A model generated the notes under the pieces. The model was not told the origin of the DNA, did no database searches, and saw only the letters and a list, made by a program, of their open reading frames with translations. Positions 318 through 30,717 of a stretch of DNA of 31,187 nt are shown one piece after another. The first letter of the stretch is position 1. Each line of letters opens with the position of its first letter. Source of the stretch: a virus. A program made the translations under genes and the position numbers. Location: positions 1-31,187 of IMG/VR virus record IMGVR_UViG_3300042988_001961; one strand, given 5' to 3'.

Positions 318-643
318 AGGCTCGTACCGAATGGCACTTCGGTGGCGGGCCAGCGTACTGCGAAGCCTGCGCAACAACATGCCCTGAATGTCCGTACCAA
401 GTGAATGCGCCCAAAACCCGAGAGGGGTGGGAGGCACTTTCGGTACTGGAGGTATGTGCGGGGCAGTTGCGTATGGCTCAAAACACAGTGATTGGCTTGG
501 ACTTCAACGCTTGGATCCAAGCCAGTGAGTCTTTAAATGCAGATGTCTGTGCGATGACGCACATATTCCCTGCGATTGAGGCGGGCATCACTGCTGCCAT
601 GAATTCTTCAAGCATCGCAACAACAGGTGACAGCCATGGCTGA
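305..643 (+). CDS. T extension of the tail assembly chaperone (gpGT-like), read by -1 frameshift
   Basis: This frame is open from 305 (preceded by TGA at 302) to the stop at 641. Its first part holds two CxxC pairs, YCEAC and CPECPY (about 359-397), like a small zinc ribbon, followed by TREGWEALSVLE and a GLDFNAW segment that recalls the DUF1799 phage family from memory. A separate start is possible only at GTG 401, which would lose the four-cysteine part and has no clear ribosome site, so fusion to the chaperone is favoured. By analogy with gpGT the extension would bind tail tube subunits and bring them to the tape measure. It overlaps the tape measure start by 8 bases. Confidence 0.7.
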   Translation, partial: KKRLKARTEWHFGGGPAYCEACATTCPECPYQVNAPKTREGWEALSVLEVCAGQLRMAQNTVIGLDFNAWIQASESLNADVCAMTHIFPAIEAGITAAMNSSSIATTGDSHG

Positions 644-3257
644 ACGCAATCTCGCAATTCGACTCTCGGTGGTGGATGTCGGCAAGGTCAAGGCAGAGCT
701 CTCCGATGTTGGAGAGGCGGGGGAAAAGTCTCTCAAGCGCATTGAGGCAGCATCGCAACCTGCATCAGCAGGATTGCAGATCGTTTCCAAAGCAGCCAAC
801 GATGCATTCGCGCAAATGGAAGATGCGACCTCGCGTCTTGGCCTCCTTGGGACGGTGCTGGGAAAACTCGGACCCGCAGGTTTGATTGCTGGAGCCTCCA
901 TCGCTGCAGCTGGTTACGGCATGCATCAGCTGATCGTGCCAGTGGCCGAAGTTGGTGAAGAACTCAACAAGCTATCCCAAAAGACTGCGGTGTCAGTAGA
1001 GGCCTTGTCTGCGCTGCTTTATGTCTCCGAGCTGTCTGATGTCAGCACGGAGAGTTTGACCAAGGCTTTGAAGTTCTTGTCGACCGCCATGTTTGATGCA
1101 AAAGTCAAAGGCGGCGAGGGCAGCGCTGCATTGCGCGCGTTTGGCATTTCGGCCTTAGATGCGAATAACCAAATCCGCCCGACCGAAGAGGTCTTGCTCG
1201 ATCTTGCCGACAAGTTTTCGGCAATGCCAGACAGTGCCGAAAAAGCTGCCCTTGCGGTGAAGCTATTTGGCAAGAACGGTTTGGACATGATCCCCATGCT
1301 CAACCAAGGGCGAGATGGGATCACAGCCATGATGGAAGAAGCCAAGCGCTTAGGCTTGGTGATGTCAGCGGATGCTGCACGGGCATCGGAAGAGTTCAAT
1401 GACAACCTGAAGCGGCTGCATGCGGTCAACGAAGGTGTGCAGCGTCAAATTGGCTCGGCCTTCATTCCGATCTTGGCCGATTTGACTGAACACATCTTTC
1501 TTGCCAAAACAGAGACTGGTGGTTTTAGCAGTGAGCTAATTGCAATAAGCAACAACCGCCAGCAAGTACTCAACTATCTTGAGGACGTTGCCAAGGGCCT
1601 TGGCTTCATCGCCGAGTCGGCGGTGTTGGCCAAGCGAGTGATCTCTCAGCCATTCGACAGTTTGTCGGTGGTGAGCAAGGACGTCGAAACATGGATGAAG
1701 AGCGACATGCTGCGCTCAATGAAGTCCATGGGCTACAACGAACAGCAGATTGATGCGGAGATTGCTAAGCTTCAAAGCGGACGCGACAAGTTCGTTGAAT
1801 CCGCCAACGAGCGACTAGCACGCATCAATGACAACCCCGGTTATGTGAACTCGATCGAGAAGTTTTTCGATGAGCAGCGTCGAACCGTTCGGGTGATGGG
1901 GCAGAAGTTTGTACTTGATACAGCTGAGCAAGCTGCACAGGTGCAAAAGATCTATGACGAGTTCTTGCCCAAGATGCCCAGAAAGGCTCCCACTGGGATG
2001 GACCTCTCAGGCTTCGACAAGAACAATGAAGGTCTGCAGTTCTTAAAACAACTCGAGCAACGCTCAATGCGTGTGACCGGTGGCGAAGCCGCTGAGCTCA
2101 GAGCCAAAGCGCTGGACTTGGAGAAAAAAGGCTACGCAGGTGTTCGAGCGGAGGCTGAGAAGTACATCCAGGTCATTGAGGCCATGGAGAAGCAAAAGGT
2201 CTCGGACAAGAAGTTTGACGAATACGAAAAAGAGCTCCAAAAGGTCCATCAGATCACCGAAGGCTACATCGGCAACAACCGACTCAAACAAGAGGAGCTG
2301 GTGCTCAAGCGAGAGATGCTAGATGTGGGGGATGTCGAACGTGCAAGCATGCAAGTGCGCTTCGATTTGGAGAAAGCTGCCTACGCTGCGCGCAGGCAAG
2401 CGGATCAAATCACTGACCCGGGACTCAAGGCTGAAGCCATCGAGCTCATCAATCATGCGTTGTCTCGTCAGTTGCCTGTGATTGTTGACTTGGCTCGTGC
2501 CAATGCGGAGTACCAACGCAGCTTTGATTACGGCATGCGCTCATCGGTTCGCAGCTATGTGGAGGATTCCATCAATGCCGCTAAGCAAGCTGAGCGGGCG
2601 GTAACTTCTGCTTTCAAAGGCATGGAGGATGCGCTCGTTCAATTTGTGACCACGGGCAAGCTCGACTTCACCAGCTTGGCCAACTCCATCATTGCTGATC
2701 TGGTACGCATTCAGATTCAGCGCATGGTCACTTTGCCATTGGCTGGATGGCTGGGAGGCTTGGGTTCAACCCCTGCGCCTGCCGCAGGAGGCAGCATCGT
2801 TCCGATAGGAGCAACCGATCTCGTGAATCCCCTGGTCGCTGTGGCGCACACGGGTGGTTTGATTGGATCGGACAGCTTGGCCTCCCGCTCTGTGGGGCTT
2901 CATAACTTCGCAGGTGCCACCCGTTATCACACGGGTGGTCTTGTCGAAGGTGAGGTTCCCATCATCGCGCAGCCGGGTGAGGCGGTGTTCACGCCCGGTC
3001 AGATGCGCGCATTGGGTGGGGCGCTTTCTTCTAAGAACCAGCCTCAAGTGCGCGTGGCTGTGAATGTGATCAATAACGCCTCGGGCGTGGATGCGCGTGT
3101 GCAGTCTTCTCAACAAGCGGATGGTTCCATGCGTCTAGACATCATCGTGGAGCAAATTGAAGCTCGCATGTCCCGATCGATTGGTCAGGGCACGGGGATT
3201 GCGCCAACTCTTGAGCGCCGCTATGGGTTGAATCCGGCTGCAGGAGCGATGCGATGA
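636..3257 (+). CDS. Tail tape measure protein
   Basis: An 873-residue protein that sets tail length and is thought to be ejected ahead of DNA. It has long helical, coiled-coil-rich stretches, an Ala/Gly-rich hydrophobic segment near residues 70-95 (LGKLGPAGLIAGASIAAAGY), and a C-terminal part with two HTGG motifs and GEVPIIAQPGEAVFTPGQ, the usual tail end of such proteins. ATG 636 is preferred over GTG 627 because AGGTGA (625-630) sits 5 bases before it. At the roughly 0.15 nm per residue known from lambda, the tail would be about 130 nm, fitting a siphovirus. It overlaps both neighbours, so translation is probably coupled. Confidence 0.93.
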   Translation: MAERNLAIRLSVVDVGKVKAELSDVGEAGEKSLKRIEAASQPASAGLQIVSKAANDAFAQMEDATSRLGLLGTVLGKLGPAGLIAGASIAAAGYGMHQLIVPVAEVGEELNKLSQKTAVSVEALSALLYVSELSDVSTESLTKALKFLSTAMFDAKVKGGEGSAALRAFGISALDANNQIRPTEEVLLDLADKFSAMPDSAEKAALAVKLFGKNGLDMIPMLNQGRDGITAMMEEAKRLGLVMSADAARASEEFNDNLKRLHAVNEGVQRQIGSAFIPILADLTEHIFLAKTETGGFSSELIAISNNRQQVLNYLEDVAKGLGFIAESAVLAKRVISQPFDSLSVVSKDVETWMKSDMLRSMKSMGYNEQQIDAEIAKLQSGRDKFVESANERLARINDNPGYVNSIEKFFDEQRRTVRVMGQKFVLDTAEQAAQVQKIYDEFLPKMPRKAPTGMDLSGFDKNNEGLQFLKQLEQRSMRVTGGEAAELRAKALDLEKKGYAGVRAEAEKYIQVIEAMEKQKVSDKKFDEYEKELQKVHQITEGYIGNNRLKQEELVLKREMLDVGDVERASMQVRFDLEKAAYAARRQADQITDPGLKAEAIELINHALSRQLPVIVDLARANAEYQRSFDYGMRSSVRSYVEDSINAAKQAERAVTSAFKGMEDALVQFVTTGKLDFTSLANSIIADLVRIQIQRMVTLPLAGWLGGLGSTPAPAAGGSIVPIGATDLVNPLVAVAHTGGLIGSDSLASRSVGLHNFAGATRYHTGGLVEGEVPIIAQPGEAVFTPGQMRALGGALSSKNQPQVRVAVNVINNASGVDARVQSSQQADGSMRLDIIVEQIEARMSRSIGQGTGIAPTLERRYGLNPAAGAMR

Positions 3258-3742
3258 CGAGTAGTTATCCACAGTTTCCGATTGAACGGATCCCTCTTCC
3301 TTCGGTGGATGGTTACACCATCTCGCCTGGTGAGGCTGTGATTCGAACGGACATGGAGTCGGGGGCGGCCAGATCGCGGCGACGGTTCAGTCAGACGCCT
3401 GCACGGGTGAGTGTTCGTTGGAACTTGCGTCCGCTGACCTATGCGATTTTTGAATCTTGGTTCAAACACGAAATCCTCGATGGCGCTGAGTGGTTTGAGT
3501 TGCCGTTGCTTGCGGGCATCGGCATGGCCACCACACAAGCGCGTTTCACCAAGGCTTATCAAGCCAAGCTGGTGCGACGCAACCAGTGGGATGTGAGTGG
3601 TGAGCTGGAGATTCGAAATCGTGCAGTCCTGACCCGTGATGCGCTGGGGGTTCTTGTGAACTCTGACTTTGAAGCTTTGGAGCTTTCTATCGACTCGCTC
3701 GAATACCTCGTCCAACACCAACTGCCCTCAGAACCTTGGTAA
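3254..3742 (+). CDS. Minor tail protein, gpM-position
   Basis: A 162-residue soluble protein whose ATG overlaps the tape measure stop as ATGA. The central part (RRFSQTPARVSVRWNLRP, FESWFKHEI, GAEWFELPL, then a WDVSGELEIRNRAVL segment) has the alternating pattern of a beta-rich distal-tail protein that often follows the tape measure gene in siphophages. In lambda the corresponding place is held by gpM, which joins the tip to the tube. I do not recognise the exact family; the function is inferred from gene order and general look. Confidence 0.65.
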   Translation: MTSSYPQFPIERIPLPSVDGYTISPGEAVIRTDMESGAARSRRRFSQTPARVSVRWNLRPLTYAIFESWFKHEILDGAEWFELPLLAGIGMATTQARFTKAYQAKLVRRNQWDVSGELEIRNRAVLTRDALGVLVNSDFEALELSIDSLEYLVQHQLPSEPW

Positions 3743-3773: not shown

Positions 3774-6404
3774 ATGAACCTGCAAGAACGGTTAGAAGCG
3801 ACAGTCAACAAGGCTGAGGTCGATGTTTCCTTGTTGCACCAAGTGGTGCACGGAAACAATCAGACCGATGTGGTCACCGAAGGTGGACCTGTCAAAACGG
3901 TGGCCAAGGCCATCCATCAGGTTGAACTTGACTTGGCTGCCTCACGCACAGAGCTCACAGCTCAGGTGGGGGAGGCCACAAGGCAAGCAGGTATTTCCAC
4001 CAGCAATGCCAACCTCTCGACCTCCAAAGCCGCAGATGCAGCGGCAACGCTGGCAGAGGTCAAGGCTAGAGCGGATGCTGCAACCAGTGTAGTGGTGATT
4101 CCTACCAAGACATGGATGGGGAACGGCACACAGACAGACTTTTCGCTTGACTATGCGGTGGGTCACCCCGGTGCATTACAGGTCACGGTTGCCAGTGTGT
4201 TGCAAACGCCCGTGGATGCCTATTCGCTGTTTGACTCTAGAACCCTGAGGTTTGTGACGGCTCCCTTGAATGGCGTGAGCATCACTGCGCGGATGTTGGA
4301 CAAAGAGAGCCAGACGGGTGCAGCTGCTGCAATGGATTGGGCAACCAAGACCACAGGGCCTGTGCAGGGTGCTGAGTATTCAGCGAAATACCAAGCGCAG
4401 GCAGCAGCCAGCAGTGCGAACGCGTCAAGTGTTTCAGCTTCAGCAGCTGCAACCAGTGCTGCGGCTTCTGCCTCTTCTGCTTCCTCATCCAGTACCAAGG
4501 CCAGTGACGCTGCAACGTCTGCAAGCAATGCGGCGGCGTCTGCGTCAACTGCGACGACTCAAGCCAGTGCCGCTTCAGGCTCTGCCAGTGGTGCTGCTAC
4601 ATCAGCGACTGCCGCAGCGGGCTCAGCCAGTACTGCTTCTTCCAAAGCGACTGAGGCATCGAGCAGTGCATCCAGTGCCTCTGGTTCAGCGGGAGCTGCA
4701 GCAACGAGTGCCAATACTGCGCAAGACTGGGCAACCAAAACCAGTGCACCTGTCAGTGGCTCCGATTACTCGGCGAAGTATTACGCCCAGTCCATCACAG
4801 GATCTGCCGCGACGGCAAGTCAAAAAGCAAGTGATGCGGCGGCGAGTGCCACGGCTGCGGCTGGGTCAGCCACTTCGGCCACGACCAAAGCCTCGGAAAG
4901 TGCTGCTTCTGCTACTAGCGCTGCATCGTCAGCGACAACGGCAACAACACAGGCAACTGCATCTGCGACATCTGCCACCAACGCAAGCGCATCTGCAAGT
5001 GCTGCCGCTGGTTCTGCAAGTACCGCCAATACCAAAGCAAGTGATGCGGCTGCAAGTGCGACGGCTGCTGCAACCTCAGCAAGCAATGCTGGAGCGAGCG
5101 CAACGAGTGCTGCCGCATCCGCGAGCGCCGCAGCTGGGTCAGCGACTACAGCGACGACCAAAGCTTCGGAGGCTTTGACGAGTGCAAACGCATCGGCTTC
5201 GTCTGCCAGTGCTGCCTCAGCTAGTGCGACAAGTGCAGCGAGTTCTCTGACCTCTGCGCAAACCCAAGCAACCAAAGCGGCTGACTGGGCAGAAAAGACC
5301 GCCACCACGGTGGATGGAACGGGTTACTCAGCTAAGTACTGGGCGGCGCAAGCGGCGGGTTCTGCCGCTGCAGTGACGACCAACACCATCATTCCTGCGG
5401 AGACATTCACGGGCAATGGTGTGGCGACGGATTTCACGATCAGTCGTGGCGTGTCTTACCCGGGCGCTTTGTTGGTCACGGTTGCAGGTGTGCAGCAAGC
5501 GCCAGTGGATGCGTACACCACGCCCACGACAACCACGCTTCGATTCAGCTCAGCGCCGGGTAATGGCGTGCTTATCAGTGTTCGGTATCTGGATAAAGAG
5601 GCGCAGTCGGGTGCCGCTGCAGCGCAAGAGTGGGCGACGAAGACGACAGGCCCAGTTTCGGGATCGACGGAATACTCCGCCAAGTACCACGCAGGTGCAG
5701 CGGCTGCGAGTAGTGCTGTTGCGACCCAAAAGGCAACAGATGCTTCTGGGTCTGCGACCTCTGCTGCAGCTTCCGCCACAACGGCTACGACCAAGGCGTC
5801 TGACGCTTTAGGTTCTGCCAGTGCTGCGGCGAGTTCTGCAACGACCGCTACTACCAAAGCAAGCGAAGCATTAGCGTCGGCGACAAACGCGGGTGCGTCT
5901 GCATCTGCGTCAGCAACTTCTGCCACTGCCTCCGCTGGCTCTGCTGCCACGGCGACTACCAAAGCATCTGACGCAGCAACGTCTGCGGCAACAGCCACAA
6001 CCAAAGCGACAGAAGCCAGTGGTTCTGCAACTGGCGCTGCAAGTTCGGCCAGTGCAGCGAGCACGTCTGCCTCTCAGGCATCGACTTCGGCCACAAGCGC
6101 TGCGACCAGTGCAACAGCATCCGCAACTTCAGCCAGCAACGCTCAGACCTATGCCACGCAGGCACAAGCTGCGGCAGCCAGTGCGCAGGGCTCAAGCGTT
6201 GCTCCACAGGTGTTCACGGGAAATGGCAGTGCCACGGACTTTGCGCTCTCCACGGCAGCGGCCAGTGTGACCAAGCTCATGGTGATCGTGGCAAACGTCA
6301 TTCAAGACTCGCTAGATGCCTATGTGTTGGTCAATAGCGGCGCAACGTTGCGGTTCACATCTGCCCCCTTGAATGGGGTGCGCATTGTGGTTCGGTATCT
6401 GTAG
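3774..6404 (+). CDS. Long Ala/Ser/Thr-rich tail fibre protein with repeated modules
   Basis: An 876-residue side-fibre or tip-fibre subunit. Residues 1-50 resemble the particle-binding start of many fibres (VVHGNNQTDVVTEGGPV). Three copies of a beta module of about 65-70 residues follow at roughly 111-179, 542-610 and 811-876, each beginning (T/V)(W/F)xGNGxxTDF and ending LRFxxAPxNGVxIxxRxL. Four WAxKTxxPVxGxxYSAKY motifs occur near residues 190, 320, 505 and 620. The rest is low-complexity Ala/Ser/Thr with Lys spaced regularly (TTKASEA-type), like the trimeric coiled shaft of lambda Stf. There is no obvious receptor tip at the C-terminus, so the next gene probably supplies it. The repeated DNA makes length change by recombination likely. 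Confidence 0.88.
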   Translation: MNLQERLEATVNKAEVDVSLLHQVVHGNNQTDVVTEGGPVKTVAKAIHQVELDLAASRTELTAQVGEATRQAGISTSNANLSTSKAADAAATLAEVKARADAATSVVVIPTKTWMGNGTQTDFSLDYAVGHPGALQVTVASVLQTPVDAYSLFDSRTLRFVTAPLNGVSITARMLDKESQTGAAAAMDWATKTTGPVQGAEYSAKYQAQAAASSANASSVSASAAATSAAASASSASSSSTKASDAATSASNAAASASTATTQASAASGSASGAATSATAAAGSASTASSKATEASSSASSASGSAGAAATSANTAQDWATKTSAPVSGSDYSAKYYAQSITGSAATASQKASDAAASATAAAGSATSATTKASESAASATSAASSATTATTQATASATSATNASASASAAAGSASTANTKASDAAASATAAATSASNAGASATSAAASASAAAGSATTATTKASEALTSANASASSASAASASATSAASSLTSAQTQATKAADWAEKTATTVDGTGYSAKYWAAQAAGSAAAVTTNTIIPAETFTGNGVATDFTISRGVSYPGALLVTVAGVQQAPVDAYTTPTTTTLRFSSAPGNGVLISVRYLDKEAQSGAAAAQEWATKTTGPVSGSTEYSAKYHAGAAAASSAVATQKATDASGSATSAAASATTATTKASDALGSASAAASSATTATTKASEALASATNAGASASASATSATASAGSAATATTKASDAATSAATATTKATEASGSATGAASSASAASTSASQASTSATSAATSATASATSASNAQTYATQAQAAAASAQGSSVAPQVFTGNGSATDFALSTAAASVTKLMVIVANVIQDSLDAYVLVNSGATLRFTSAPLNGVRIVVRYL

Positions 6405-6429: not shown

Positions 6430-7029
6430 GTGCCTATTACCCAAATCCCACCCGAGGGGCTTAAAGACTCGGGTGTCTCTGCTGGAACTTATGGGTCAGC
6501 TTCACAAATCCCTGTCGTGACGGTCAACAGCAAAGGTCAAGTGACTTCAGCGGGTACAGCAGCGTTGGACTTGTCTACCAAGGTCAACAAAGCAGGCGAC
6601 ACGATGACGGGAACCTTGTCTCTTCCACGTTTGCAAGTCGCATCCACTGCGAACTACATCGACATGGTCGATACGGACTGGGGCACGCGCTCGTTTCATC
6701 ACAACCAAGGGCTCATGGGGTTTTTGAAATCCGATGGCAACTGGGACATGTACATGAATAACGGTGGTCAGATGTGGACGGCCAACTACGGCTGGCTGCA
6801 TGACTGTTTCTTCAACAACGTGAGTAATTGTGTTCGAGTGAATAACAACCCCTCAGCTGGTTGGCAAGGCGCACCTAATTGCCAAGTCACAGACAACTGT
6901 TACAACTGCGGCGATCAGCCAGTTGCAACGTACTACAACATGGTCACGTTGTTTGACCAGGGTGGAAATTTGCGCCTTGGAGCCTATGGCACTCGGTACA
7001 ACTGCAATTGCAACTGCGATTGTTGCTAG
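6430..7029 (+). CDS. Cys-rich fibre-tip protein, probable substrate of the downstream modifying enzymes
   Basis: A 199-residue protein. Residues 15-43 (GVSAGTYGSASQIPVVTV, then a GQVTSAGT tail) and GDTMTGTLSL (57-64) are standard phage fibre repeats; residues 76-125 (DMYMNNGGQMWTANYGWLHD) resemble distal fibre domains. The C-terminal third has ten cysteines at 126, 134, 151, 157, 160, 192, 194, 196, 198 and 199. Nine follow Asn or Asp directly, and the protein ends NCNCNCDCC. Metal binding, disulfides or thioether cross-links are possible. A radical SAM/SPASM enzyme and a probable 2OG oxygenase lie within 1.5 kb downstream in the same gene string, which makes this the likely target. The fibre repeats are seen; the modification is inference. 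Confidence 0.8.
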   Translation: MPITQIPPEGLKDSGVSAGTYGSASQIPVVTVNSKGQVTSAGTAALDLSTKVNKAGDTMTGTLSLPRLQVASTANYIDMVDTDWGTRSFHHNQGLMGFLKSDGNWDMYMNNGGQMWTANYGWLHDCFFNNVSNCVRVNNNPSAGWQGAPNCQVTDNCYNCGDQPVATYYNMVTLFDQGGNLRLGAYGTRYNCNCNCDCC

Positions 7030-7040
7030 GGGGTGAAAAC

Positions 7041-7883
7041 ATGAAACTTCACCTCACAACAAAAAACACACCTTTTGCGCTGGATGTCACCTTAGATGGT
7101 TCTGTGCTGTCGTTTCGAATTCGAAGTGTGATGCAACGAGAGTTTATAGGCGACCCAACACAAGACCATGAAAGCGGCGGCAAGTTCTTTGATGAATCGT
7201 TGATCACCGAGTGGCGAGGTGACTGGGGCATTTTTGAGGAGGGCGTTTATGAACGAACGCTGGACTTGCAAACACTCAAGTCACACGCGGAGTTCGGTGA
7301 CCATGCTTCCTTCATGTTGTATGCCCCTAAGGGATGGGCCTCAGAAGGCGCGCGCGAAAGTCTCTTTGATCACACGCCAAACCTGTACGTAGCCACCTTG
7401 GCAAGCAAGATGGATGCACAGGCATATCACGCGACCGTGGTTCAGGCACATCCCATCGGTCACATCTTGGTGCCATTCAAAACATCTGAAATGGCAGATT
7501 GGTTCCTTGGTTTCAATGTGTTCGATCCTGTTCTTGTCAAAACACAAGGGGACATCGATGCAGAGCCTTGTGTCACTCTGGCTTTGGCGCGTATGGAGTC
7601 TTTGCCTGTGGTTCGATTCATGCCCAGCGTTGAATCGGACGAAGGACTGGTTGTTAATTTCAGACTTGAAGAACCTGATGGCCAGCCAGTAAACAACCAC
7701 GACGCAGAAATCTATCTGGATTCAACCGCCGGGTTCTTACGTGACCGTCGTGTGATGACAGTTGATGGAGCAGGGAGCACTGTCTTTAAAACAGACGGCT
7801 TGAGCTCAGGCACACAAGTCAAGATCAAAGTTGGCTTCAAGTACTTCAGCGGTACAGATGATTTGGTGGTGAGTGTTCCATGA
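7041..7883 (+). CDS. Unrecognised tail-cassette protein with a C-terminal Ig-like domain
   Basis: A 280-residue soluble protein; ATG 7041 is chosen over an in-frame TTG at 7008 because AGGGGGTG precedes it and the TTG lies within the end of the previous gene. Residues 1-190 form an unknown mixed domain rich in aromatic and acidic residues. Residues about 195-280 look like a bacterial Ig-like beta sandwich (GQPVNNHDAEIYLDSTAG, then a VFKTDGLSSGTQVKIKVGF segment and a VVSVP end). There is no signal peptide. The stop overlaps the next start as ATGA. It could be a fibre-associated structural protein, a chaperone for the tip or a partner that presents the substrate to the enzymes; the sequence does not decide. 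Confidence 0.65.
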   Translation: MKLHLTTKNTPFALDVTLDGSVLSFRIRSVMQREFIGDPTQDHESGGKFFDESLITEWRGDWGIFEEGVYERTLDLQTLKSHAEFGDHASFMLYAPKGWASEGARESLFDHTPNLYVATLASKMDAQAYHATVVQAHPIGHILVPFKTSEMADWFLGFNVFDPVLVKTQGDIDAEPCVTLALARMESLPVVRFMPSVESDEGLVVNFRLEEPDGQPVNNHDAEIYLDSTAGFLRDRRVMTVDGAGSTVFKTDGLSSGTQVKIKVGFKYFSGTDDLVVSVP

Positions 7884-8491
7884 TCCTTGACCTTTTCCCT
7901 CTTAAAACAGGGATCTGGTCACTTGGGATGGATGCGGTGTTTGATCAAGGGCTTTATGAAGAGCTCTTGCAGTTGAACGCACGTATGCAAACAGGCGATC
8001 AGATCTGGGAGCGCAAAGACCACAACATCTTTGACGGTCATTCCCCACGTTGCCAGACATTGCAGGCGGCCGTTTTATCCAAAGTGCAGGAGCTTCTTGG
8101 TTCAAACGGGCGAGTGATGCATGTGCAAGGGCGAGAGGTCGTTCGTGCGAGTGGCGTCGAAATCATGCCCCACAACGACGAAGACGAATGTGATGTGCAG
8201 GCTGTCTATTTCCCATTCGGCCCCGAGCTTGATGATGACTTAGGTCTGATACCGCAAGTCAATCAATTCGCTCCCAACGGCTTTGCCATCTGTAACCCTG
8301 CTTGGCGATCGTCTGGGTTTGCTGGGTTGCTCATGCCTTGGGAGTTTCCATCCAAGTTTTGGATCAAACCTCATCGTGGTCTGTTGATTGCGTTTGATGC
8401 CAGAGCGATTCATTTTCAGAAACCCTACTTTGGGGAGCAACCGTTCATGAACATTCTTTTCAATATCAAAGTGGAGCGCATCCATGTCTGA
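7880..8491 (+). CDS. Probable 2-oxoglutarate/Fe(II)-dependent oxygenase
   Basis: A 203-residue protein with the outline of a prolyl-hydroxylase-type double-stranded beta helix: an HxD pair at His98-Asp100 (EIMPHNDEDE), then a distal segment GLLIAFDARAIHFQKPYFG with His178, followed by FMNILFNI, which matches the closing strand of this fold. These would be the three iron ligands. The Arg or Lys usually about ten residues after the distal His, which holds the 2OG carboxylate, is not at its usual place (residues 187-190 are QPFM), so co-substrate use is uncertain. Overlaps both neighbours (4 and 8 bases). Enzymes of this type hydroxylate side chains such as Pro, Asn or Asp; the Asn/Asp-Cys tip protein upstream is a reasonable target, by inference. 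Confidence 0.6.
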   Translation: MILDLFPLKTGIWSLGMDAVFDQGLYEELLQLNARMQTGDQIWERKDHNIFDGHSPRCQTLQAAVLSKVQELLGSNGRVMHVQGREVVRASGVEIMPHNDEDECDVQAVYFPFGPELDDDLGLIPQVNQFAPNGFAICNPAWRSSGFAGLLMPWEFPSKFWIKPHRGLLIAFDARAIHFQKPYFGEQPFMNILFNIKVERIHV

Positions 8492-9833
8492 GTTCCGTAT
8501 CTATGTGATCAAGCCTGATGGATCAGAGGACTCGCTGGTTTACAACAATCAAACTTCGAGCCTTGTGTGGAGCAACGGCCAGTCTGTCGTTCCCGTCAAA
8601 GCACGCGCTTGGCGCGATGCGACGGTTGTTTCCAAAGATCAACTCGGTCGCAAGGGCAATGTGCGAGTGCTCAAGATCAGCCTTGGTCTGCTTTGCAATT
8701 ACGCCTGCACTTACTGTTCACAAAGGTTTGTGTCCCATGCCGATCAAACCAATCCAGAAGACGTTGAGACTTTTCTTCACTCTCTGGTCGATGCGCTGAT
8801 TGAATCTCCAGAGCGCATTGAGTTCTGGGGAGGTGAGCCGTTGGTCTACTGGAAGACGTTGAAGCCTTTGGCTGAGCGGTTGAGGACTCTGTACCCCAAG
8901 GCACAGTTCAGCATGATCACCAATGGCAGTCTGTTGGATGCGGACAAGAACGCATGGATTGACCGTTTGGGATTCTCTGTGGGGCTGTCGCACGATGGCC
9001 CGGGTTATCACGCCCGAGGTGCTGATCCTTTAGACGACCCGCAAAAGCGCGCCGCCATCTTTGATCTGTACGCACGCCTCAAGCCTGGGGGTCGAATCAG
9101 TATCAACGCCATGATCCATGCAAGCAACCCAAGTCGCGCGCATGTGCAGTCATGGTTGCGCGAGCGTTTTGGTGAAGATGTGGTGATCGGTGAGGGCGCA
9201 TTCATTGACCCGTATGACGAGGGCGGACTGGCTTCCATGTTTCAGACTTCAGTCGAGCGGATCACTTTCAGTGCCTATGCGTTCAAAGAGTTGCGCGCAG
9301 GTGCTGTGAGTAGTTTTGACATTGCTCGCAAGAAGATCATGGACTTTGTGGAGTCTGTGGCACAAGGTCGTCCTGCCAGTGCGTTGGGCCAAAAGTGCGG
9401 CATGGACCGTACCGACAACCTAGCGGTCGATCTGAACGGCAATGTGCTCACTTGCCAAAACGTGAGTGCGGCGGCGGTGGCTCCAAATGGCGAGTCGCAC
9501 AAGATTGGTCACATCTCGCAGCTACAAGCAGTCAAGATGCGAAGCGCCACGCATTGGAGTAAGCGAGAAGAGTGTTCAAGCTGCCCTGTGCTTCAGTTGT
9601 GCAAAGGCTCCTGCATGTTCTTGGATGGTCCGTTATGGAAAGCCGGGTGTGATGCCTCGTATGCCGACAACGTGCCATTCTTAGCTGCTGGCATTGAGTT
9701 CCTCACTGGCTGTTTCCCGTTCTACATCGAGGGGGACTTCCCGCTGGAACGTCGAGACATCTTCGGTTTGGTCAGTGAGCACTCAGAAGTCAAAGAGCGT
9801 CGAGTCATTCCCATCAAGGTAGAACATGCCTGA
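8484..9833 (+). CDS. Radical SAM/SPASM peptide- or protein-modifying enzyme
   Basis: A 449-residue enzyme. C71-x3-C75-x2-C78 (LCNYACTYCSQ) binds the SAM-cleaving 4Fe-4S cluster, and FWGGEPL (114-120) holds the GGE SAM-binding motif. The C-terminus has a full SPASM pattern: C305-x13-G-x4-C324, then C364-x2-C367-x5-C373-x3-C377 and C389, which carries auxiliary clusters. This class includes sulfatase maturases, sactipeptide and ranthipeptide thioether synthases and QhpD, which cross-links Cys to Asp/Glu in a protein. Residues 1-60 are an extra N-terminal domain that could recognise the substrate. It starts inside the oxygenase gene and ends inside the next tail gene (8-base overlaps), so it is a fixed part of the tail string. 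Enzyme class is clear; substrate and reaction are not. Confidence 0.93.
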   Translation: MSEFRIYVIKPDGSEDSLVYNNQTSSLVWSNGQSVVPVKARAWRDATVVSKDQLGRKGNVRVLKISLGLLCNYACTYCSQRFVSHADQTNPEDVETFLHSLVDALIESPERIEFWGGEPLVYWKTLKPLAERLRTLYPKAQFSMITNGSLLDADKNAWIDRLGFSVGLSHDGPGYHARGADPLDDPQKRAAIFDLYARLKPGGRISINAMIHASNPSRAHVQSWLRERFGEDVVIGEGAFIDPYDEGGLASMFQTSVERITFSAYAFKELRAGAVSSFDIARKKIMDFVESVAQGRPASALGQKCGMDRTDNLAVDLNGNVLTCQNVSAAAVAPNGESHKIGHISQLQAVKMRSATHWSKREECSSCPVLQLCKGSCMFLDGPLWKAGCDASYADNVPFLAAGIEFLTGCFPFYIEGDFPLERRDIFGLVSEHSEVKERRVIPIKVEHA

Positions 9834-10368
9834 TGTGACGTTGAGTGACGCGTTGAAGGAGGCGTACGCGAGTTCACCTTCGGATGTGGTGATCCTGCAT
9901 ACCTTGGAGCTACGTCACCCAGACTTTAAAAATGAGTCAGGCGTGACAACTGCCATCCGGGTTGTTCGAGATCAACAAGACCTCTTTGCACGCCTCGAAC
10001 ACTCGGCTCCGCTGAACCCAAGTCAGATGGTGAGGTTTGTGGCCATGGGCTTTGATTTGGATTTGCCGCCTGTAGACATTGCACCGGTTCCTGAGGTCGT
10101 TCTGACCTTGGATAACGTCTCACGCGAGATCGTCAAACACCTTGATGCGGCGTCCGAGTCCGAAGCTTCCATCGAAGTCACTTATCGACCGTACTTGTCG
10201 AACGACATGGAGGGACCGCAGATGGACCCTCCCATCACGTTGGTACTGACCGAGGTAGAGGCGGATGTGATGCGAGTGACCGCAAGAGCACGAATGGTTG
10301 ATATCGGCAATAAGGCGTTTCCGGGGCGGCTGTACACCGCGACGGAGTTCCCGGGATTGGCTCGGTGA
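9826..10368 (+). CDS. DUF1833-type minor tail protein (gpL position)
   Basis: A 180-residue protein that matches from memory the phage DUF1833 family: an N-terminal helix (LSDALKEAYASSP), then beta-rich sequence (ILHTLELRHPDF, FVAMGFDLDLPP) and a RLYTATEFPGL-type end. These proteins lie just before the NlpC/P60 gene in many siphophages, where lambda has gpL, and are part of the tail tip. It overlaps the radical SAM stop by 8 bases, which shows the modification cassette is built into the tail operon rather than simply dropped between operons. Confidence 0.82.
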   Translation: MPDVTLSDALKEAYASSPSDVVILHTLELRHPDFKNESGVTTAIRVVRDQQDLFARLEHSAPLNPSQMVRFVAMGFDLDLPPVDIAPVPEVVLTLDNVSREIVKHLDAASESEASIEVTYRPYLSNDMEGPQMDPPITLVLTEVEADVMRVTARARMVDIGNKAFPGRLYTATEFPGLAR

Positions 10369-10378
10369 CGGAGATGAC

Positions 10379-10822
10379 ATGAAACCAACTGATAGTTACT
10401 GGGCGCACCGATACATAGGTCGTCCATGGATAGCAGGTGCACGAGGCCCCGAGTCATTTGACTGCTGGGGCCTTTTTTTATGGGTTCAAGGAAAGCACTT
10501 CGGACGTGAGCTTCCACTTATCCCCGTTGATGCGCTGAGTCTGCGTGTGGTGCTCAAGACATTCAACGATCACCCCGAGCGTAAACGCTGGCAGCGCGTG
10601 TCCGCCCCTAAGCATGGAGATGCTGTGCTGATCCGCCAGTCCAGATATCCGGTGCATGTCGGTGTTTGGCTGGACATCGACGGCGGTGCCGTATTGCATT
10701 GCGCGCAAAGCGTGGGTGTGGTGTTTCAGGACTTGTGGGCGCTAGACCGTCATGGCTGGCGTGTCGAAGGTTTTTATGCATTTCGAGGTGATCCATGCCA
10801 AGCAGCAATGACGGTGTCGTAG
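10379..10822 (+). CDS. NlpC/P60-family tail peptidase (gpK-like)
   Basis: A 147-residue cysteine peptidase of the tail tip, expected to cut peptidoglycan stem peptides during DNA entry. The catalytic Cys is C29 in ESFDCWGLF; His93 in PVHVGVW and His107 in AVLHCAQ complete the triad. ATG 10379 follows GACGGAG and leaves a 10-base gap to the previous gene; the longer open frame from 10298 would overlap it by 71 bases and adds no family-like sequence. The gene ends 28 bases inside the next one. A terminator-like hairpin lies within its coding sequence at the catalytic-Cys codons. Confidence 0.88.
   Translation: MKPTDSYWAHRYIGRPWIAGARGPESFDCWGLFLWVQGKHFGRELPLIPVDALSLRVVLKTFNDHPERKRWQRVSAPKHGDAVLIRQSRYPVHVGVWLDIDGGAVLHCAQSVGVVFQDLWALDRHGWRVEGFYAFRGDPCQAAMTVS
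10444..10479 (+). terminator. Terminator-like hairpin inside the NlpC/P60 coding sequence
   Basis: AGGCCCC (10444-10450) pairs perfectly with GGGGCCT (10467-10473). Inside it AGTC can pair with GACT. Seven T follow at 10473-10479. It has every part of an intrinsic terminator but lies within a gene, over the codons around the catalytic cysteine. It would lower J-like tip mRNA unless translation or antitermination suppresses it; activity is inferred. Confidence 0.45.
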
Positions 10823-13074
10823 TTTGGCTTCGAAATCCATTCGATCCCCACGAGCGGGACATCCACTATGTTCAGGGGAATCCAACCATCAGCCAATGGA
10901 TGAATCAAGAGCAGATTGTTTTTGAGCAACCAACGCTGGTGCTCAAGAACGGCAAGCCTGTACTCATGGCTGGGCGCGGTGTGACCCCCATCGATGCTGG
11001 AGATGTCATCGCCCTGGTGTCATTGCCGCAGGGGGGCGGAGGAGGGGGCAAGAATCCCCTGCAGACGGTTTTGATGATTGCCGTGTTGGTTGTGGCCAAT
11101 GCCTATGGCGCTGAGCTGGCCGCATCGTTTGGGTATTCAGGGGCTGTGGCTACTTCGGTGGCATCGACTGCAATTGCCGTGACGGGTTCCATCATCGTTA
11201 GCGCTTTGGTGCCGCTACCCAATCAGAGCCTGCCCAATGCGACCGCGAGTTCGTCCTCCCCAAGTCCTACCTATTCGTTGCAGGCCCGAGGTAACTACGG
11301 ACGGCTGTCGCAGCCAATTCCTGTTGTGTACGGTCAGCATCTGATTTATCCAGATTTGGCAGCGATGCCCTATACGGAGTACGTCAACAACGAGGAGTAC
11401 CTGCATCAGCTCCATGTAATTGGCATTGGGCACTTTCAATTTGAAGAGCTGTCGATTGATGACAGTCCGCTTGCATCGTTTGAAGAAGTACAGGCGCAAG
11501 TCATTGAGCCGGGCGGTCAAAACACCCTGTTCAACAACGATGTGGTGACGGCTGCTGAAGTGACAGGGCAGGAGTTGATTGCCGTCGCTGATACGGGGGG
11601 CAGCATCATTGGCCCGTTCGCACTTAATCCTGCAGGAACTCAGGTCAATCAGATTGGCATCGATGTTGTGATGATGCGTGGGTTGTATTACGCGAATGAC
11701 GGCGGGACGCTGGATAGCCGAACCGTTCAATGGCGGGTTGAAGCTAGAACCCTTAACGATGACGGAGACGCCACATCTGGATGGATTCATATTGCTGATG
11801 AGTCCTACTCTGCTGCGACCAACACGGCGCAGCGAAGAACCTACAAATATGGTGTGGGTATAGGGCGCTACGAGGTGCGTGTTCAAAGGCTAGACACCAA
11901 AGACGCCAGCACCCGAGCTGGGCATGAACTTCGGTGGGGGCAGGCCAAGGGCTATCTGGTCAATCCAACATTGCCCTCAGATTTGACCTTGCTGGCTTTA
12001 CGCATGCGCGCAACGGACAACTTGTCACAGCGGTCATCCCGCTTAGTTAACTGCTTGGTAACGCGCAAGTTGCCAGTTTGGTCAAAGACCACCGGTTGGA
12101 GTGCACCGCAAGCCACACGCTCGATTGCTTGGGCATTTGCAGATGCGGCACGTGCGACTTATGGCGCAGGTTTACCGGATTCAAAGATTGATCTCAATGC
12201 ATTGGCCCGGCTCGATGGCGTATGGTCTGCGCGTGGCGATACGTTCAATGGTGTGTTCGACCAGAACCTAACCGTCTGGGACGCCATGGGACAGATTGCT
12301 AGAGCGGGGCGTGCGGTGCCATTCTTGCAAGGTGGCATCGTGCGAATTGTTCGAGATGAGCCCAAGACCATACCTGTGGCTTTGTTCTCCACACGAAACA
12401 TCGTCCGAAGCAGTTTGAAGATTCAGTATGTGATGCCCGGCGATGCCACTGCGGATGCGGTCACAGTTGAATACTTCAACCCCAAGAGCTGGAAACCTGA
12501 CGAGATCACAGTCGCTCTTGCTGGTTCCACTTTATCCAAGCCTGCACGCTTGAAGCTCTTTGGTTGTACCGACAGGTCGCAAGCCGCACGTGAGGGAAAG
12601 TACATCGCCGCAGCCAATCGGTACCGCAGACGAATCATCACTTTTAGGACTGAGCTCGAAGGGTTGATTCCAACCTACGGCGACTTGGTGGCCATCAGTC
12701 ATGACATGCCCAGCTGGGGTGTAAGTGGTGAGGCCCTGTCTTGGGATGCCACATCAAAGATATTGTTCTGTTCTGAGCGCTTGCCTTGGCTGACGGGTGC
12801 AAATCACTACGTCGTGCTCAGACGCTTGGATGGTTCGGTCACTGACCCGATCGGTGTGACGCGCGGTGCGACTGATCGCCATGCGGTCTTGCAACAAGCG
12901 CCGAGCATTGGTGTCCAAACCGGGGGAGGTGAAGAGCGAACGCACTTTGCTTTTGGGGTGGGGCAGACCTGGGCCCAGATGGCGCGCGTAATGAGTGTCA
13001 AACCACGGGCTGATTTGGTGGAGGTGACCTGCGTGGCAGAAAGCCCTGCAGTTCACACCGCCGATCAAACATAA
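10795..13074 (+). CDS. Tail tip/host-specificity protein, J-like, short form
   Basis: A 759-residue central tip protein. Residues 1-85 form a small N-terminal domain ending in a Gly run (PQGGGGGGKN), followed by a hydrophobic Ala-rich stretch at about 88-135, typical of gpI/J-type tip proteins. Next comes the J core (ARGNYGRLSQPIPVVYGQHL and LHVIGIGHFQFEELSIDD) and later tail-hub segments (WDAMGQIARAGRAVPFLQGG, VTVEYFNP). Lambda J is about 1130 residues; here the long fibronectin-like and receptor-binding C-terminus is absent. Host recognition is therefore probably passed to the fibre cassette at 3774-7029. A terminator follows the stop. Confidence 0.88.
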   Translation: MPSSNDGVVVWLRNPFDPHERDIHYVQGNPTISQWMNQEQIVFEQPTLVLKNGKPVLMAGRGVTPIDAGDVIALVSLPQGGGGGGKNPLQTVLMIAVLVVANAYGAELAASFGYSGAVATSVASTAIAVTGSIIVSALVPLPNQSLPNATASSSSPSPTYSLQARGNYGRLSQPIPVVYGQHLIYPDLAAMPYTEYVNNEEYLHQLHVIGIGHFQFEELSIDDSPLASFEEVQAQVIEPGGQNTLFNNDVVTAAEVTGQELIAVADTGGSIIGPFALNPAGTQVNQIGIDVVMMRGLYYANDGGTLDSRTVQWRVEARTLNDDGDATSGWIHIADESYSAATNTAQRRTYKYGVGIGRYEVRVQRLDTKDASTRAGHELRWGQAKGYLVNPTLPSDLTLLALRMRATDNLSQRSSRLVNCLVTRKLPVWSKTTGWSAPQATRSIAWAFADAARATYGAGLPDSKIDLNALARLDGVWSARGDTFNGVFDQNLTVWDAMGQIARAGRAVPFLQGGIVRIVRDEPKTIPVALFSTRNIVRSSLKIQYVMPGDATADAVTVEYFNPKSWKPDEITVALAGSTLSKPARLKLFGCTDRSQAAREGKYIAAANRYRRRIITFRTELEGLIPTYGDLVAISHDMPSWGVSGEALSWDATSKILFCSERLPWLTGANHYVVLRRLDGSVTDPIGVTRGATDRHAVLQQAPSIGVQTGGGEERTHFAFGVGQTWAQMARVMSVKPRADLVEVTCVAESPAVHTADQT

Positions 13075-15394: not shown

Positions 15395-17122
15395 ATGGCT
15401 AAGCTTTGCCATCTCTCAATCCAAAACTTCCGCTCGATACAAATGTTGTCGTGGGCTCCGTCCGCTGGCATTAACTGTTTGATCGGGCCAGGTGATAGCG
15501 GAAAATCGACCATCCTTGATGCGATAGATCTGTGTCTTGGTGCACGTCGCAGCGTCGCTTTCGGCGACACGGATTTCCACAATCTAGACGTTACCCAGCC
15601 CATTGTCATATTGGCTACTCTTGACGGTTTGCCTGACCAGCTTTTGAATCTTGATGTTTATGGCGATTTCTTGCGGGGGTTCAATCCGGATACGGGGCAG
15701 GTAGAGGATGAGCCAAGGAGTGGCATTTCGACTGTTTTGACGCTTTGTCTTACTGTGGCGGCAGATCTTGAACCTGTATGGAGTCTATATTCAGAGCGCG
15801 CCCAACGTGATGGAATAGAGCGCAGCCTAGCGTGGAAAGATCGTGCATTGCTTGCCCCAGCTCGCATTGGTAGTTTCGCGAACAGTAATTTGTCGTGGTC
15901 ACGCAATTCGGTACTCAATCGTCTGACGGAAGACCGAGCAGAATTAGGACCGCAGCTTGCTGCTGCGGCTCGACAGGCGCGAGCCAATTTTGGCGACAAG
16001 GCTGATGCTCAGCTTTCTGAGGCCCTGGCAACTGTGACCGTCGTGGCCAATAGATTAGGCGTTCCTGTTGGTGCATCTGCGCGCGCATTACTTGATGCGC
16101 ACTCGGTATCAATTGGCGATGGCGCTATAGCACTGCATAACGAAGCTGGGATACCCCTGCGCTCCCTTGGGACAGGATCATCGCGGCTGCTTGTCGCTGG
16201 TCTACAGCGCGAGGCTACGGAGTCGGCGTCAATTGCGCTTGTCGATGAAGTTGAGTATGGACTTGAGCCTCATCGCCTTGCGAGGTTATTAGACTCGCTT
16301 GGCGCAAAAGATGATGGCGAATCGCTGCAAACTTTCATGACAAGTCATTCTCCTGTCGCCTTACGGGAGTTGACCGCAGACCAAGTGTTTGTCGTGCGTG
16401 CACACCTTGATCGGCACCGAGTACGTCGAGTTGGGGCGGTAGACGATATTCAAGGGATGTTACGTAAGAATGCTGAAGCGTTTTTGGCAAAGTCTATTGT
16501 TGTATGTGAGGGCGCATCTGAAGTTGGATTTGGGCGAGGTCTTGATAATTACTGGAGCAGTAAGGGGCATATCTCATTTTTTGCTCTGGGAGGGGCCTAC
16601 GTGGATACCGGAGGTAGTGATCCGGATCGGTGTTTTGAGCAGGGCAGTGCACTTTTGAAAATCGGATATCGCGTGTTGGTCCTAGCTGACGCTGATAAGC
16701 CGCCTACCGCTGATGTGGTTCAAGCGTTTCACAATTCCGGTGGTGCATCTGTCACTTGGCGCCAGGGGCGTGCTCTTGAAGATGAGCTATTCCATAGTCT
16801 TTCAGACGTTGGTATTGATGCGTTACTTAATAAAGCCATTGATAACTTAGGTCGCGATTTGGTCGATGATCACATCAAGTCGAAGTCTGGTGGACAGGTG
16901 GACTTGAGTGACATTGAGTTAGAGCGAATTTTTGATGCATACACAGATGAGACCAAGACCTTGCTCGCGATCTCGTCTAAGACTAAAGGTAATGGCTGGT
17001 TCAAATCAATAACGGGATTTCAAGAAGTCGCAAATGACATTGTGGGGCCACATCTAGCTGAAGCTGATACGGACTTTCAAGTGTTGATCAATAACTTCCA
17101 AAATTGGATTCATGCCGCCTGA
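15395..17122 (+). CDS. OLD-family ATPase-TOPRIM nuclease, GajA-like
   Basis: A 575-residue protein. Residues 1-340 are an SMC-like ATPase: Walker A GPGDSGKST (31-39), signature-like LGTGSSRLL (258-266), Walker B SIALVDEVEYGLEP (279-292) and the TSHSP switch (316-320). Residues about 365-460 are a TOPRIM domain with Glu372 (VVCEGASE) and the Asp432/Asp434 pair (VLVLADADKPP). Size and domain order match Gabija GajA (about 580 residues) and class 2 OLD nucleases, which nick or cut phage DNA when nucleotide levels fall. The partner helicase starts 11 bases before its stop. Start ATG 15395 follows GGAG by 8 bases. Whether the system belongs to the prophage or the host is not settled. Confidence 0.87.
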   Translation: MAKLCHLSIQNFRSIQMLSWAPSAGINCLIGPGDSGKSTILDAIDLCLGARRSVAFGDTDFHNLDVTQPIVILATLDGLPDQLLNLDVYGDFLRGFNPDTGQVEDEPRSGISTVLTLCLTVAADLEPVWSLYSERAQRDGIERSLAWKDRALLAPARIGSFANSNLSWSRNSVLNRLTEDRAELGPQLAAAARQARANFGDKADAQLSEALATVTVVANRLGVPVGASARALLDAHSVSIGDGAIALHNEAGIPLRSLGTGSSRLLVAGLQREATESASIALVDEVEYGLEPHRLARLLDSLGAKDDGESLQTFMTSHSPVALRELTADQVFVVRAHLDRHRVRRVGAVDDIQGMLRKNAEAFLAKSIVVCEGASEVGFGRGLDNYWSSKGHISFFALGGAYVDTGGSDPDRCFEQGSALLKIGYRVLVLADADKPPTADVVQAFHNSGGASVTWRQGRALEDELFHSLSDVGIDALLNKAIDNLGRDLVDDHIKSKSGGQVDLSDIELERIFDAYTDETKTLLAISSKTKGNGWFKSITGFQEVANDIVGPHLAEADTDFQVLINNFQNWIHAA

Positions 17123-18524
17123 GCTCGATCTTTTTTCAGTTGACCGCGGATCTGTAACTGCACCTGCGGGCTGTGGTAAGACGCATCTCATCGCCTATTC
17201 GTTGTCGAAGCACGTTGGCCCCAAGCCTGTCCTTGTGTTGACCCACACGAATGCAGGCGCTGCTGCTTTGCGTCAGCGCATGAAGAAGGCTAGTGTCCAT
17301 TCATCAGTCTTCCGAGTCTCTACGATTGATGGTTTTGCCATGCGTCTTATCGCAATGTTTCCGATGCGTAGCGCCATCGACTTACGTATTCTTGAAATTG
17401 GTGACCCTCGGAACGACTACCCAACAATTCGAAATGCCGCCCTTGCTCTTTTGAAAGCAGGTCATTTATCCATTGCTTTGCGTGCTACATATGCGAGGGT
17501 CATCGTCGACGAATACCAAGACTGCAACCTTCTTCAACACAGCATCATCGATGCGTTGGCTTGTGAGCTGCCAACGGTCGTGCTTGGAGACCCCATGCAG
17601 GCGATCTTTGGTTTTGCGGGTAATCGATTAGTCAATTGGGTTCAAGACGTCGCCACTCGATTCCCCCCCATTGGCGAACTCGAGACACCATGGAGGTGGA
17701 TAAACGCTGGTACTGAGGAACTAGGTCGTTGGTTGCTGCATGCCCGAGCCGAACTGCAGGCCGGTCGTAGCGTTGAGCTGCATACTGCGGTGGCTGGGCT
17801 AGAGTGGGTCCAGTTGGACAGAGCTAATCTTGACGGGGGGCGTCGAAATGCTGCGCATACGCGACTTCAAGATGGAGAGGAGACCGTCCTTATCATTGGT
17901 GATGCTCGCAATCCCCGTGGACGACATCAGTTCACCAGTCAGACGCGTGGAGCCACATCCGTCGAGACAGTTGACCTCGGCGACCTGACCGTCTTCGCTC
18001 GCCGATTTGACCTGACTCGGGCTGACGCTCTTGAGTACTTGGTTAACTTCGCAGGAGACGTCATGACTGGTGTAAGCGCGACAACATATCTTGGTCGTAT
18101 CAAGACGTTGCAAGGCGGACGAGCTAGAAATTCTGCAACGGAGGCTGAAGAGGCTGCTCTGGCTTTTGCCAAGCATCCAACTTTCGGTTCGGCTTTGCAG
18201 GTGTTACAGCAGCTAGAGACGCAGCCAGGGGCGCGTGTTTTTAGACCAGAAATGTTTAATTGTTGCCTGTCTGCCATGCGCTCTGTATCTGGTGAAAAAA
18301 CCTTTTTGGATGCAGTTCTGCAAGCGCGTGAGAGGAATCGCCATCATGGACGCCCTGTTTCGCGTAGAGCGGTTGGGAGCACACTTCTTCTCAAGGGGTT
18401 GGAGGCAGATGTCGCTGTTATCTTGCAACCTGAGCAGATGGACGCATGCAACCTATACGTCGCACTGACTCGCGGTGCCAAACGTGTGTTGATTTGCTCA
18501 GAGCGCAGTGTGCTGAGTCCTTGA
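17112..18524 (+). CDS. UvrD-like superfamily 1 helicase, GajB-like
   Basis: A 470-residue helicase. Motif I APAGCGKTH (17-25), Ia LTHTNAGAAAL (43-53), II VIVDEYQDCN (130-139), III LGDPMQAIFGF (158-168), V LLKGLEADVAV and VI LYVALTRG (about 448-455) are present. It is shorter than UvrD (about 720), as GajB is (about 490). The gene overlaps the OLD-type gene by 11 bases, so both are made together. In Gabija the helicase-like subunit joins GajA in one complex and helps activate defence. Class 2 OLD-UvrD pairs and Gabija share this layout and cannot be parted from sequence alone. Confidence 0.87.
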   Translation: MPPELDLFSVDRGSVTAPAGCGKTHLIAYSLSKHVGPKPVLVLTHTNAGAAALRQRMKKASVHSSVFRVSTIDGFAMRLIAMFPMRSAIDLRILEIGDPRNDYPTIRNAALALLKAGHLSIALRATYARVIVDEYQDCNLLQHSIIDALACELPTVVLGDPMQAIFGFAGNRLVNWVQDVATRFPPIGELETPWRWINAGTEELGRWLLHARAELQAGRSVELHTAVAGLEWVQLDRANLDGGRRNAAHTRLQDGEETVLIIGDARNPRGRHQFTSQTRGATSVETVDLGDLTVFARRFDLTRADALEYLVNFAGDVMTGVSATTYLGRIKTLQGGRARNSATEAEEAALAFAKHPTFGSALQVLQQLETQPGARVFRPEMFNCCLSAMRSVSGEKTFLDAVLQARERNRHHGRPVSRRAVGSTLLLKGLEADVAVILQPEQMDACNLYVALTRGAKRVLICSERSVLSP

Positions 18525-22537: not shown

Positions 22538-22548
22538 GGAGACAAGGC

Positions 22549-26226: not shown

Positions 26227-26403
26227 GATTCGATACTGTTTTACTTTCTGGATCGAGATGTGTTTTATTTCGAAATCATCAAAACACGTATGGTGTTAAA
26301 GAGTTTTGGATCTAACGGTGATACATTGCTTAAAAAAATAACCTTTCAAAGCTCGCTTGAGCGGCACGGCATAAAGATTACCTATTAAAAATTGGGGGAT
26401 TCA

Positions 26404-30699: not shown

Positions 30700-30717
30700 G
30701 CGGCTATTAGACACCCA

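Follow-up and report, generated by a model that had tools for sequence, protein, structure and literature searches.

Within a stretch of 31,187 nucleotides of viral DNA (IMG/VR virus record IMGVR_UViG_3300042988_001961, positions 1 to 31,187; hereafter the window), a phage tail operon likely encodes a maturation system for the tail tip or fibre that resembles those of ribosomally synthesized and post-translationally modified peptides (RiPPs). The proposed substrate is a 199-residue tail-fibre tip protein (6430..7029, + strand), assigned from its open reading frame (ORF), its matches to fibre PHROGs, the contexts of its cysteines and its relatives in IMG/VR and in prophages. Its last nine residues, NCNCNCDCC, form a C-terminal (Asn-Cys)n tag (7000..7026, +; read from the sequence and its codons). 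The proposed maturase of this tag is a 449-residue radical S-adenosylmethionine (SAM)/SPASM enzyme (8484..9833, +), assigned from profiles, an AlphaFold model and its nearest folds. An earlier note, made from the letters of this DNA alone, had suggested a RiPP-like fibre tip, and this is still the best available reading, as a conserved tag–enzyme pair is built into tail operons. What marks a RiPP maturase, a substrate encoded next door that bears a conserved modifiable motif, is seen here in the reciprocal co-occurrence of the two genes and in an Asn-Cys signature. The cassette is RiPP-like by its parts and logic but is no assigned member of a named RiPP class. We infer that the enzyme modifies the tag; the type of bond and the role of the tip are hypothetical.

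The earlier note had proposed looking in other phages for co-occurrence of the Cys-rich end with this SPASM subfamily, and the outcome was strongly positive in both directions. In the forward direction, IMG/VR was scanned for the enzyme and the best 80 of 372 relatives were examined: 62 enzyme loci have 4.2 kb or more of upstream DNA, and in 59 of them an ORF there on the same strand ends in the tag. One of the misses, locus L058, carries a looser tag (...ACNCAGGACDCG), while L038 and L051 have no normal tail region upstream and are probably rearranged or cut. The reverse scan, of DNA and blind to the enzyme, used the codons of NCNCNCxC and yielded at least 83 loci with a motif-bearing ORF (36 pattern matches lying in no motif-carrying ORF were left out). 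Among the matches listed, every one of the 43 ORFs that has a terminal tag, or a tag followed by a Hint domain, and at least 3 kb downstream has a same-strand enzyme nearby. Where the reverse scan gave a locus without the enzyme, the contig is cut, the ORF is spurious, or the motif lies at the N-terminus of an unrelated small protein. The protein in the last case (L199, L092, L191 and others) is a small viral protein of the form MxKCKNCNCNCHC...EECETCQ that has no radical SAM gene and belongs to a different Cys-rich family.

Tag ORFs account for 172 of 2562 upstream same-strand ORFs, compared with 4 of 2762 in the rest of that strand and 10 of 5702 on the opposite one; with this upstream enrichment the pairing is not a matter of chance. 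The loci are partly related and the raw counts overstate their independence, so that the figures by lineage (68) and by protein cluster (16) given below are safer. From these genomic comparisons we regard the pairing of enzyme and tag as highly probable. The reciprocal co-occurrence, which holds across unrelated tail proteins and gene orders, also bears on the idea that the enzyme is a passenger, a defence or metabolic gene such as viperin that was inserted in a tail operon and has nothing to do with the tag. Cargo genes are frequent in phages and there are weak matches to pVip (viperin), but these reach only 47 bits and viperins lack the SPASM domain that is present here; viperin or defence cargo was therefore rejected, and a passenger of any kind is scarcely credible. 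The enzyme occurring widely without a Cys-rich protein, which the earlier note had named as contrary evidence, was not what we saw in phage lineages; the description suits only a minority of non-phage relatives, which sit in YcaO or ABC-exporter peptide clusters.

The composition of the tag was then compared across its relatives. Nine of the ten Cys of the tip protein in the window are preceded by Asn or Asp, and 166 unique tag proteins near the enzyme carry the same kind of tag. Within their runs the residue between Cys is Asn (64%), Asp (14%) or Ala (11%), and Asn immediately precedes the run in 152 of the 166. When the terminal run was removed from 76 non-redundant proteins, 219 of the 312 remaining Cys (70%) were found directly after Asn, set against a background share of 7.6% for Asn; the six residues most often found before Cys in control ORFs do not include Asn. 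By this excess Asn-Cys looks like the target of the enzyme, and the sequence pattern makes it quite probable that Asn-Cys is the unit acted on. Many tags mix synonymous codons (both Asn codons in 54 of 72 tags, both Cys codons in 43 of 72), which led us to reject a DNA direct-repeat artefact and points to selection on the protein. The run forms the very last residues before the stop codon in 74 of 157 unique proteins without a Hint domain, and nearly all the others end within a few residues of it. Under lenient linkage, the bodies that bear the tag form no fewer than 16 clusters, and they range from 67 to over 600 residues. Mean column identity is 41% for the enzyme versus 17–20% for partner proteins; judged by these alignments, the enzyme is the constant part and the fibre bodies are the variable part.

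Some loci are arranged differently. In L177 (6202-7114), three tandem short tag proteins of 95, 92 and 109 residues, each ending in an NC repeat, precede one enzyme. Two to four radical-SAM-like genes stand near tag proteins of 67–83 residues in L106 (3051-10408), L192 (240-5579) and L151 (7139-9354), and the tag proteins of L106 and L192 contain HTHIFxDDYSTACNCNCNCNC.

The C-x-C-x-C alternation would also suit an inward-facing strand. Alternating Cys that point into a trimer could bind iron or zinc as a metal needle, with the radical SAM enzyme making some other, minor modification. HxH motifs bind metal in T4 gp37 and in P2-type spikes, and HxH metal needles are thus established for phage tips. 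Such spikes, however, need no radical SAM enzyme, whereas in 43 of 43 cases among the matches listed the tag is accompanied by one, and plain metal binding leaves the strict Asn before Cys unexplained. We consider a metal needle unlikely.

The identification of the enzyme as a radical SAM protein with a complete SPASM set, already made in the earlier note, was borne out by profile matches and conserved Cys. It scored 31.2 bits toward Radical_SAM (PF04055, cut-off 29.5), 38.4 bits toward the SPASM profile TIGR04085 (cut-off 27) and 7e-58 toward phrog_1802, and it scores below the cut-off of the Pfam SPASM profile. The three Cys of the CX3CX2C radical SAM cluster motif (C71, C75 and C78; 8694..8717, +) are invariant among 50 relatives. 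In the alignment of the same relatives, the SPASM Cys set (9396..9650, +), which follows the subfamily pattern C-x(n)-GX4C ... CX2CX5CX3C ... C, is likewise invariant at C305, C324, C364, C367, C373 and C377, and C389 is kept in at least 90%. The AlphaFold model has a predicted local distance difference test (pLDDT) score of 92.6, its fold agrees with the TIM-barrel-like core of the radical SAM superfamily, and its nearest solved folds are anSME and CteB, followed by ChlB, TigE and SuiB, all peptide-modifying SPASM enzymes. Alignment to anSME (4k36/4k37) revealed that the ligand pattern CGMNGTCTC at auxiliary cluster I (Aux I) has shrunk to CGMD, with the second Cys gone, and that Gln stands where anSME has Asp after the next Cys. 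This Asp has a catalytic role in anSME. With the extra Aux I Cys absent and Asp replaced by Gln, an anSME function was rejected.

The altered Aux I site recalls that of CteB, which is open and can be occupied by a substrate Cys, while the clusters of anSME are fully ligated (PMC6231123). The best NCBIfam match is the PapB ranthipeptide maturase (NF047865), at 64.8 bits versus an equivalog cut-off of 340; PapB links Cys to Asp/Glu by thioethers, with anything from 0 to 6 residues between them (PMC9413430). Because Aux I is CteB-like in lacking the extra Cys and PapB is the best NCBIfam match, thioether formation is the chemistry that we favour at the tag, as a plausible but tentative assignment. 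The strict two-residue repeat could instead be read as a substrate for epimerization, in which alternate residues are inverted to give a D/L tip, possibly a polytheonamide-like β-helix that enters membranes. The radical SAM epimerase EpeE/YydG is indeed among the matches, but the epimerases match less strongly and in part only (TMq about 0.34 compared to 0.54 for anSME), and the complete SPASM domain and many Cys favour sulfur chemistry; epimerization is thus very unlikely.

Two genes between tip and enzyme encode possible partners. A 280-residue β/immunoglobulin (Ig) protein (7041..7883, +; assigned from a hidden Markov model survey, AlphaFold and Foldseek) has family members in 26 of the 37 non-redundant tagged lineages with context. 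Its AlphaFold model has a pLDDT of 91, and Foldseek gave only a partial Ig-like match in the PDB, along with whole-protein likeness to uncharacterised phage proteins in BFVD. The Ig domain proposed in the earlier note is weakly supported, by three of 41 relatives matching Big_1 and by the Ig-like domains found with Foldseek. At a guess, the protein might be an adaptor or cap for the tag, or a fibre assembly factor.

The second partner, a 203-residue protein (7880..8491, +), has no Pfam match by itself. Through its relatives it was confirmed as a probable Fe(II)/2-oxoglutarate (2OG) oxygenase, as the earlier note had proposed: 30 of 36 family members match PF13759 (2OG-FeII_Oxy_5, best 5e-22), and the family has an HxD...H triad. 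H98 and H178 are invariant among the 36 relatives; the HxD iron motif (H98-D100) lies at 8171..8179 (+) and the second His at 8411-8413. Homologues include 3bvc and 2rg4. One to three copies of the gene occur per locus, and in L069 (633-2493) three consecutive oxygenase-like genes, two of which match the profile of the 203-residue protein, stand between the 280-residue protein gene and the enzyme. Presence of the 2OG gene coincides with no clear change in tag composition. With the family in only 16 of the 37 lineages, the oxygenase was rejected as a core partner. The earlier note had read the two enzymes jointly; the radical SAM pairing stood, whereas hydroxylation plus crosslinking as the core design did not, the 2OG gene being optional and the 280-residue protein the more constant partner.

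Not every tag is the end of its gene product. In nine proteins, including those of Achromobacter phages JWF and 2-1 and of a Burkholderia paludis prophage, the run continues into CFPAGT or CFVAGS, the start of a putative, intein-like Hint domain of 170–214 residues. At the junction (...NCSC|FPAGT), the first Cys of the Hint domain continues the repeat. Matches to the Hint profile PF05203 (E 9.5e-7 and 1.9e-6) are below the curated cut-off, and GenBank names JWF gp28 a Hint-family protein. Across the enzyme tree, Hint domains turn up in several distinct branches; the gene for the 280-residue protein is missing from at least four lineages with a Hint domain (L082, L229, L276 and L277) and present in L248. 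From this arrangement we infer that, where the tag is not terminal in the gene product, the Hint domain would cleave itself off and expose the tag.

The tag probably lies at the distal end of the fibre, and two functional readings remain, which are mutually compatible: a tip that contacts the host and a lock for the fibre trimer. As a lock, the matured (Asn-Cys)n end would join or register three fibre chains, in the manner of a C-terminal folding chaperone or a collagen cystine knot, and leave the receptor untouched. In Pseudomonas phages Itty13 and Dolphis, a homologous fibre segment ends in a Peptidase_S74 chaperone where the tag stands here, and in L247 the tag directly follows a collagen-like repeat, which recalls collagen cystine knots. 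The very short tag proteins (67–96 residues) and the tandem trio of L177 are, however, unlike long trimeric fibres, and the scattered Asn-Cys sites of the bodies would be superfluous for a lock, which makes a lock somewhat doubtful. Receptor contact by the tip is itself put forward with reserve, as a possibility slightly better placed than the lock.

To follow the system across lineages, a quick tree was built from 68 enzymes at <70% identity. Of these, 49 are accompanied by a terminal tag and seven by a tag plus Hint domain; three loci are truncated and nine were scored as having none. Among the nine, a tag protein does lie nearby in L106 and L112, and six fall in two subclades outside tail operons. 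These subclades of distant relatives stand beside genes of peptide-antibiotic machinery: YcaO and nitroreductase (L274 and L281), a C39-peptidase ABC exporter and HlyD (L241) or an ABC exporter (L261). In L274 (3391-7302) and L281 (3342-7293), from Variovorax and Ramlibacter, a YcaO–nitroreductase fusion adjoins the radical SAM relative, and the gene content apparently marks an uncharacterised peptide-antibiotic cluster. The tree, with its arbitrary root, does not settle whether transfer went from phage to cell or from cell to phage.

A prophage survey of 84,980 species genomes found prophage-like loci with the tag in Limnohabitans, Rhodoferax, Polynucleobacter, Burkholderia, Paraburkholderia, several Rhodobacteraceae, Magnetospirillum and Bradyrhizobium. 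The system is patchy, since the enzyme is in only two of 201 genomes of the Limnohabitans parvus family, one of them L. parvus itself. Thalassobacter stenotrophicus (L258 and L260) has three enzyme copies in one genome, two of them on one contig. Among isolated phages, the system is carried by Achromobacter phages JWF (a siphovirus) and 2-1, and is therefore directly testable; beyond this pair, no named phage gave an enzyme match that combines high similarity with coverage of most of the protein. The siphovirus JWF is temperate, with a host range described as relatively broad (PMC3899368), from which nothing follows about the tip.

The overlaps that the earlier note had seen in the cassette were confirmed: the genes for the 280-residue protein, the 203-residue protein, the enzyme and the following DUF1833 minor tail protein (9826..10368, +; PF08875 1.4e-42, phrog_396) overlap by 4, 8 and 8 bases, and 11 bases separate the tip gene from that for the 280-residue protein. 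Because the genes overlap, the enzyme would be co-transcribed with the tail genes, made in the infected cell alongside the tail proteins and at work there during tail synthesis. It would act on the Asn-Cys units of the tag and on the scattered Asn-Cys sites of the body, the likeliest products being thioethers in which Cys sulfur is bonded to backbone or side-chain carbons of neighbouring residues. The presumably trimeric fibre would thereby end, at its C-terminus, in a rigid, crosslinked structure. The 280-residue protein may present or cap the tag, and 2OG oxygenases may add hydroxyl groups in some phages.

Several points weigh against this RiPP-like scheme. An unmodified tag could bind metal while the enzyme acts elsewhere. 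RRE/PqqD-like leader-binding domains are common, though not universal, in RiPP radical SAM maturases, and profile searches with the enzyme gave no match to one, its N-terminus being modelled as three strands only. The enzyme is far under every NCBIfam equivalog cut-off, so its chemistry cannot be read off, and L273, the last of the nine enzymes scored as having none, and L223 stand as exceptions. Combined into one account, phages of Beta- and Alphaproteobacteria would build a crosslinked RiPP-like tail end from Asn-Cys repeats by means of a dedicated SPASM enzyme, would in some cases present it through Hint self-cleavage instead, and would contact or breach the host surface with the matured tip; in this full form the account is tentative.

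Full-text searches of the literature, outside bioRxiv and most subscription journals, turned up no account of phage tails being modified by radical SAM enzymes. SPASM peptide maturation is of a known kind, and virion tail tips as its substrate class are without a precedent that we found. Probably, many bacterial viruses tailor the chemistry of their tail tips. If the scheme is true, virions carry, where they touch the host, chemistry that is made by an enzyme and not encoded genetically, and the target of radical SAM peptide maturation is a structural protein of the particle instead of a secreted peptide. It would help explain how fibre tips are stiffened, folded or armed in some phages, would expose receptor-binding ends missed by sequence-based or AlphaFold models, and would provide a portable modification tag consisting of an Asn-Cys repeat and one enzyme.

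The cassette is flanked by further tail genes. Upstream are the tape measure gene (627-3257, labelled from position and length), a minor tail protein gene (3254-3742) and the gene for an Ala/Ser-rich tail fibre with a T7-fibre N-terminal-domain motif (3774..6404, +; Pfam PF03906 7.6e-7 and PHROG tail fibre matches). Downstream of the DUF1833 gene are those for an NlpC/P60 protein (10376-10822) and a short J-like tip protein of 759 residues (10795-13074), for which together phrog_329 and phrog_31 are cited. The shortening of the J-like protein noted earlier was upheld, in that it aligns only up to position 849 of 1565 in phrog_31; this alignment would fit the loss of a C-terminal part. A move of host recognition from the J-like protein to the tip, which the earlier note had proposed, is hypothetical, as is a chemically hardened tip.

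Beyond the tail and lysis-side genes, the window contains a complete Gabija-like pair (15395-18524; GajA 1.5e-233, GajB 4e-187) and a pair like those of cyclic-oligonucleotide-based antiphage signalling systems (CBASS; 21623-23982), comprising an S_4TM effector (9.7e-94) and a SMODS cyclase with an AGS_C sensor (7.4e-40). A second AAA_21 ATPase (26392-28071), a D12 adenine methyltransferase (28089-28958) and a Fic protein (29548-30714) follow. Together with the CBASS-like pair, these genes give the right half of the window the look of a defence island, which might lie at the end of a prophage.

Compared with known systems, the cassette combines familiar parts in a different setting. Set beside the autoprocessing Hint domains of Hedgehog and intein proteins, the putative Hint domain has a CFPAGT start that aligns with position 1 of PF05203 right behind the tag; it is joined to a phage tail tag, and its cleavage is predicted. 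The S74 fibres of Itty13 and Dolphis share the fibre segment YDTDWG..LHSNGGLVGFL but lack a Cys tag, and those phages yielded no radical SAM relative. The closest non-phage relatives of the enzyme that were found (36% identical) belong to YcaO (TOMM) and C39-exporter RiPP clusters of Variovorax, Ramlibacter and others, in which neither tail genes nor an (NC)n protein was found. anSME is the best fold match, and one GenBank record gives its name to the JWF homologue; it differs in the fully ligated Aux I and its CGMNGTCTC pattern, as described above, and the tag has no sulfatase-type site. PapB and CteB share with the enzyme the radical SAM domain, the complete SPASM domain and a short Cys-rich substrate region encoded next door, and CteB, one of the two best folds, also lacks one protein Cys at Aux I. 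The enzyme of the window differs from both in having no detected RRE and in scoring far under the equivalog cut-offs, and in that it faces the end of a virion tail protein instead of a leader-plus-core peptide.

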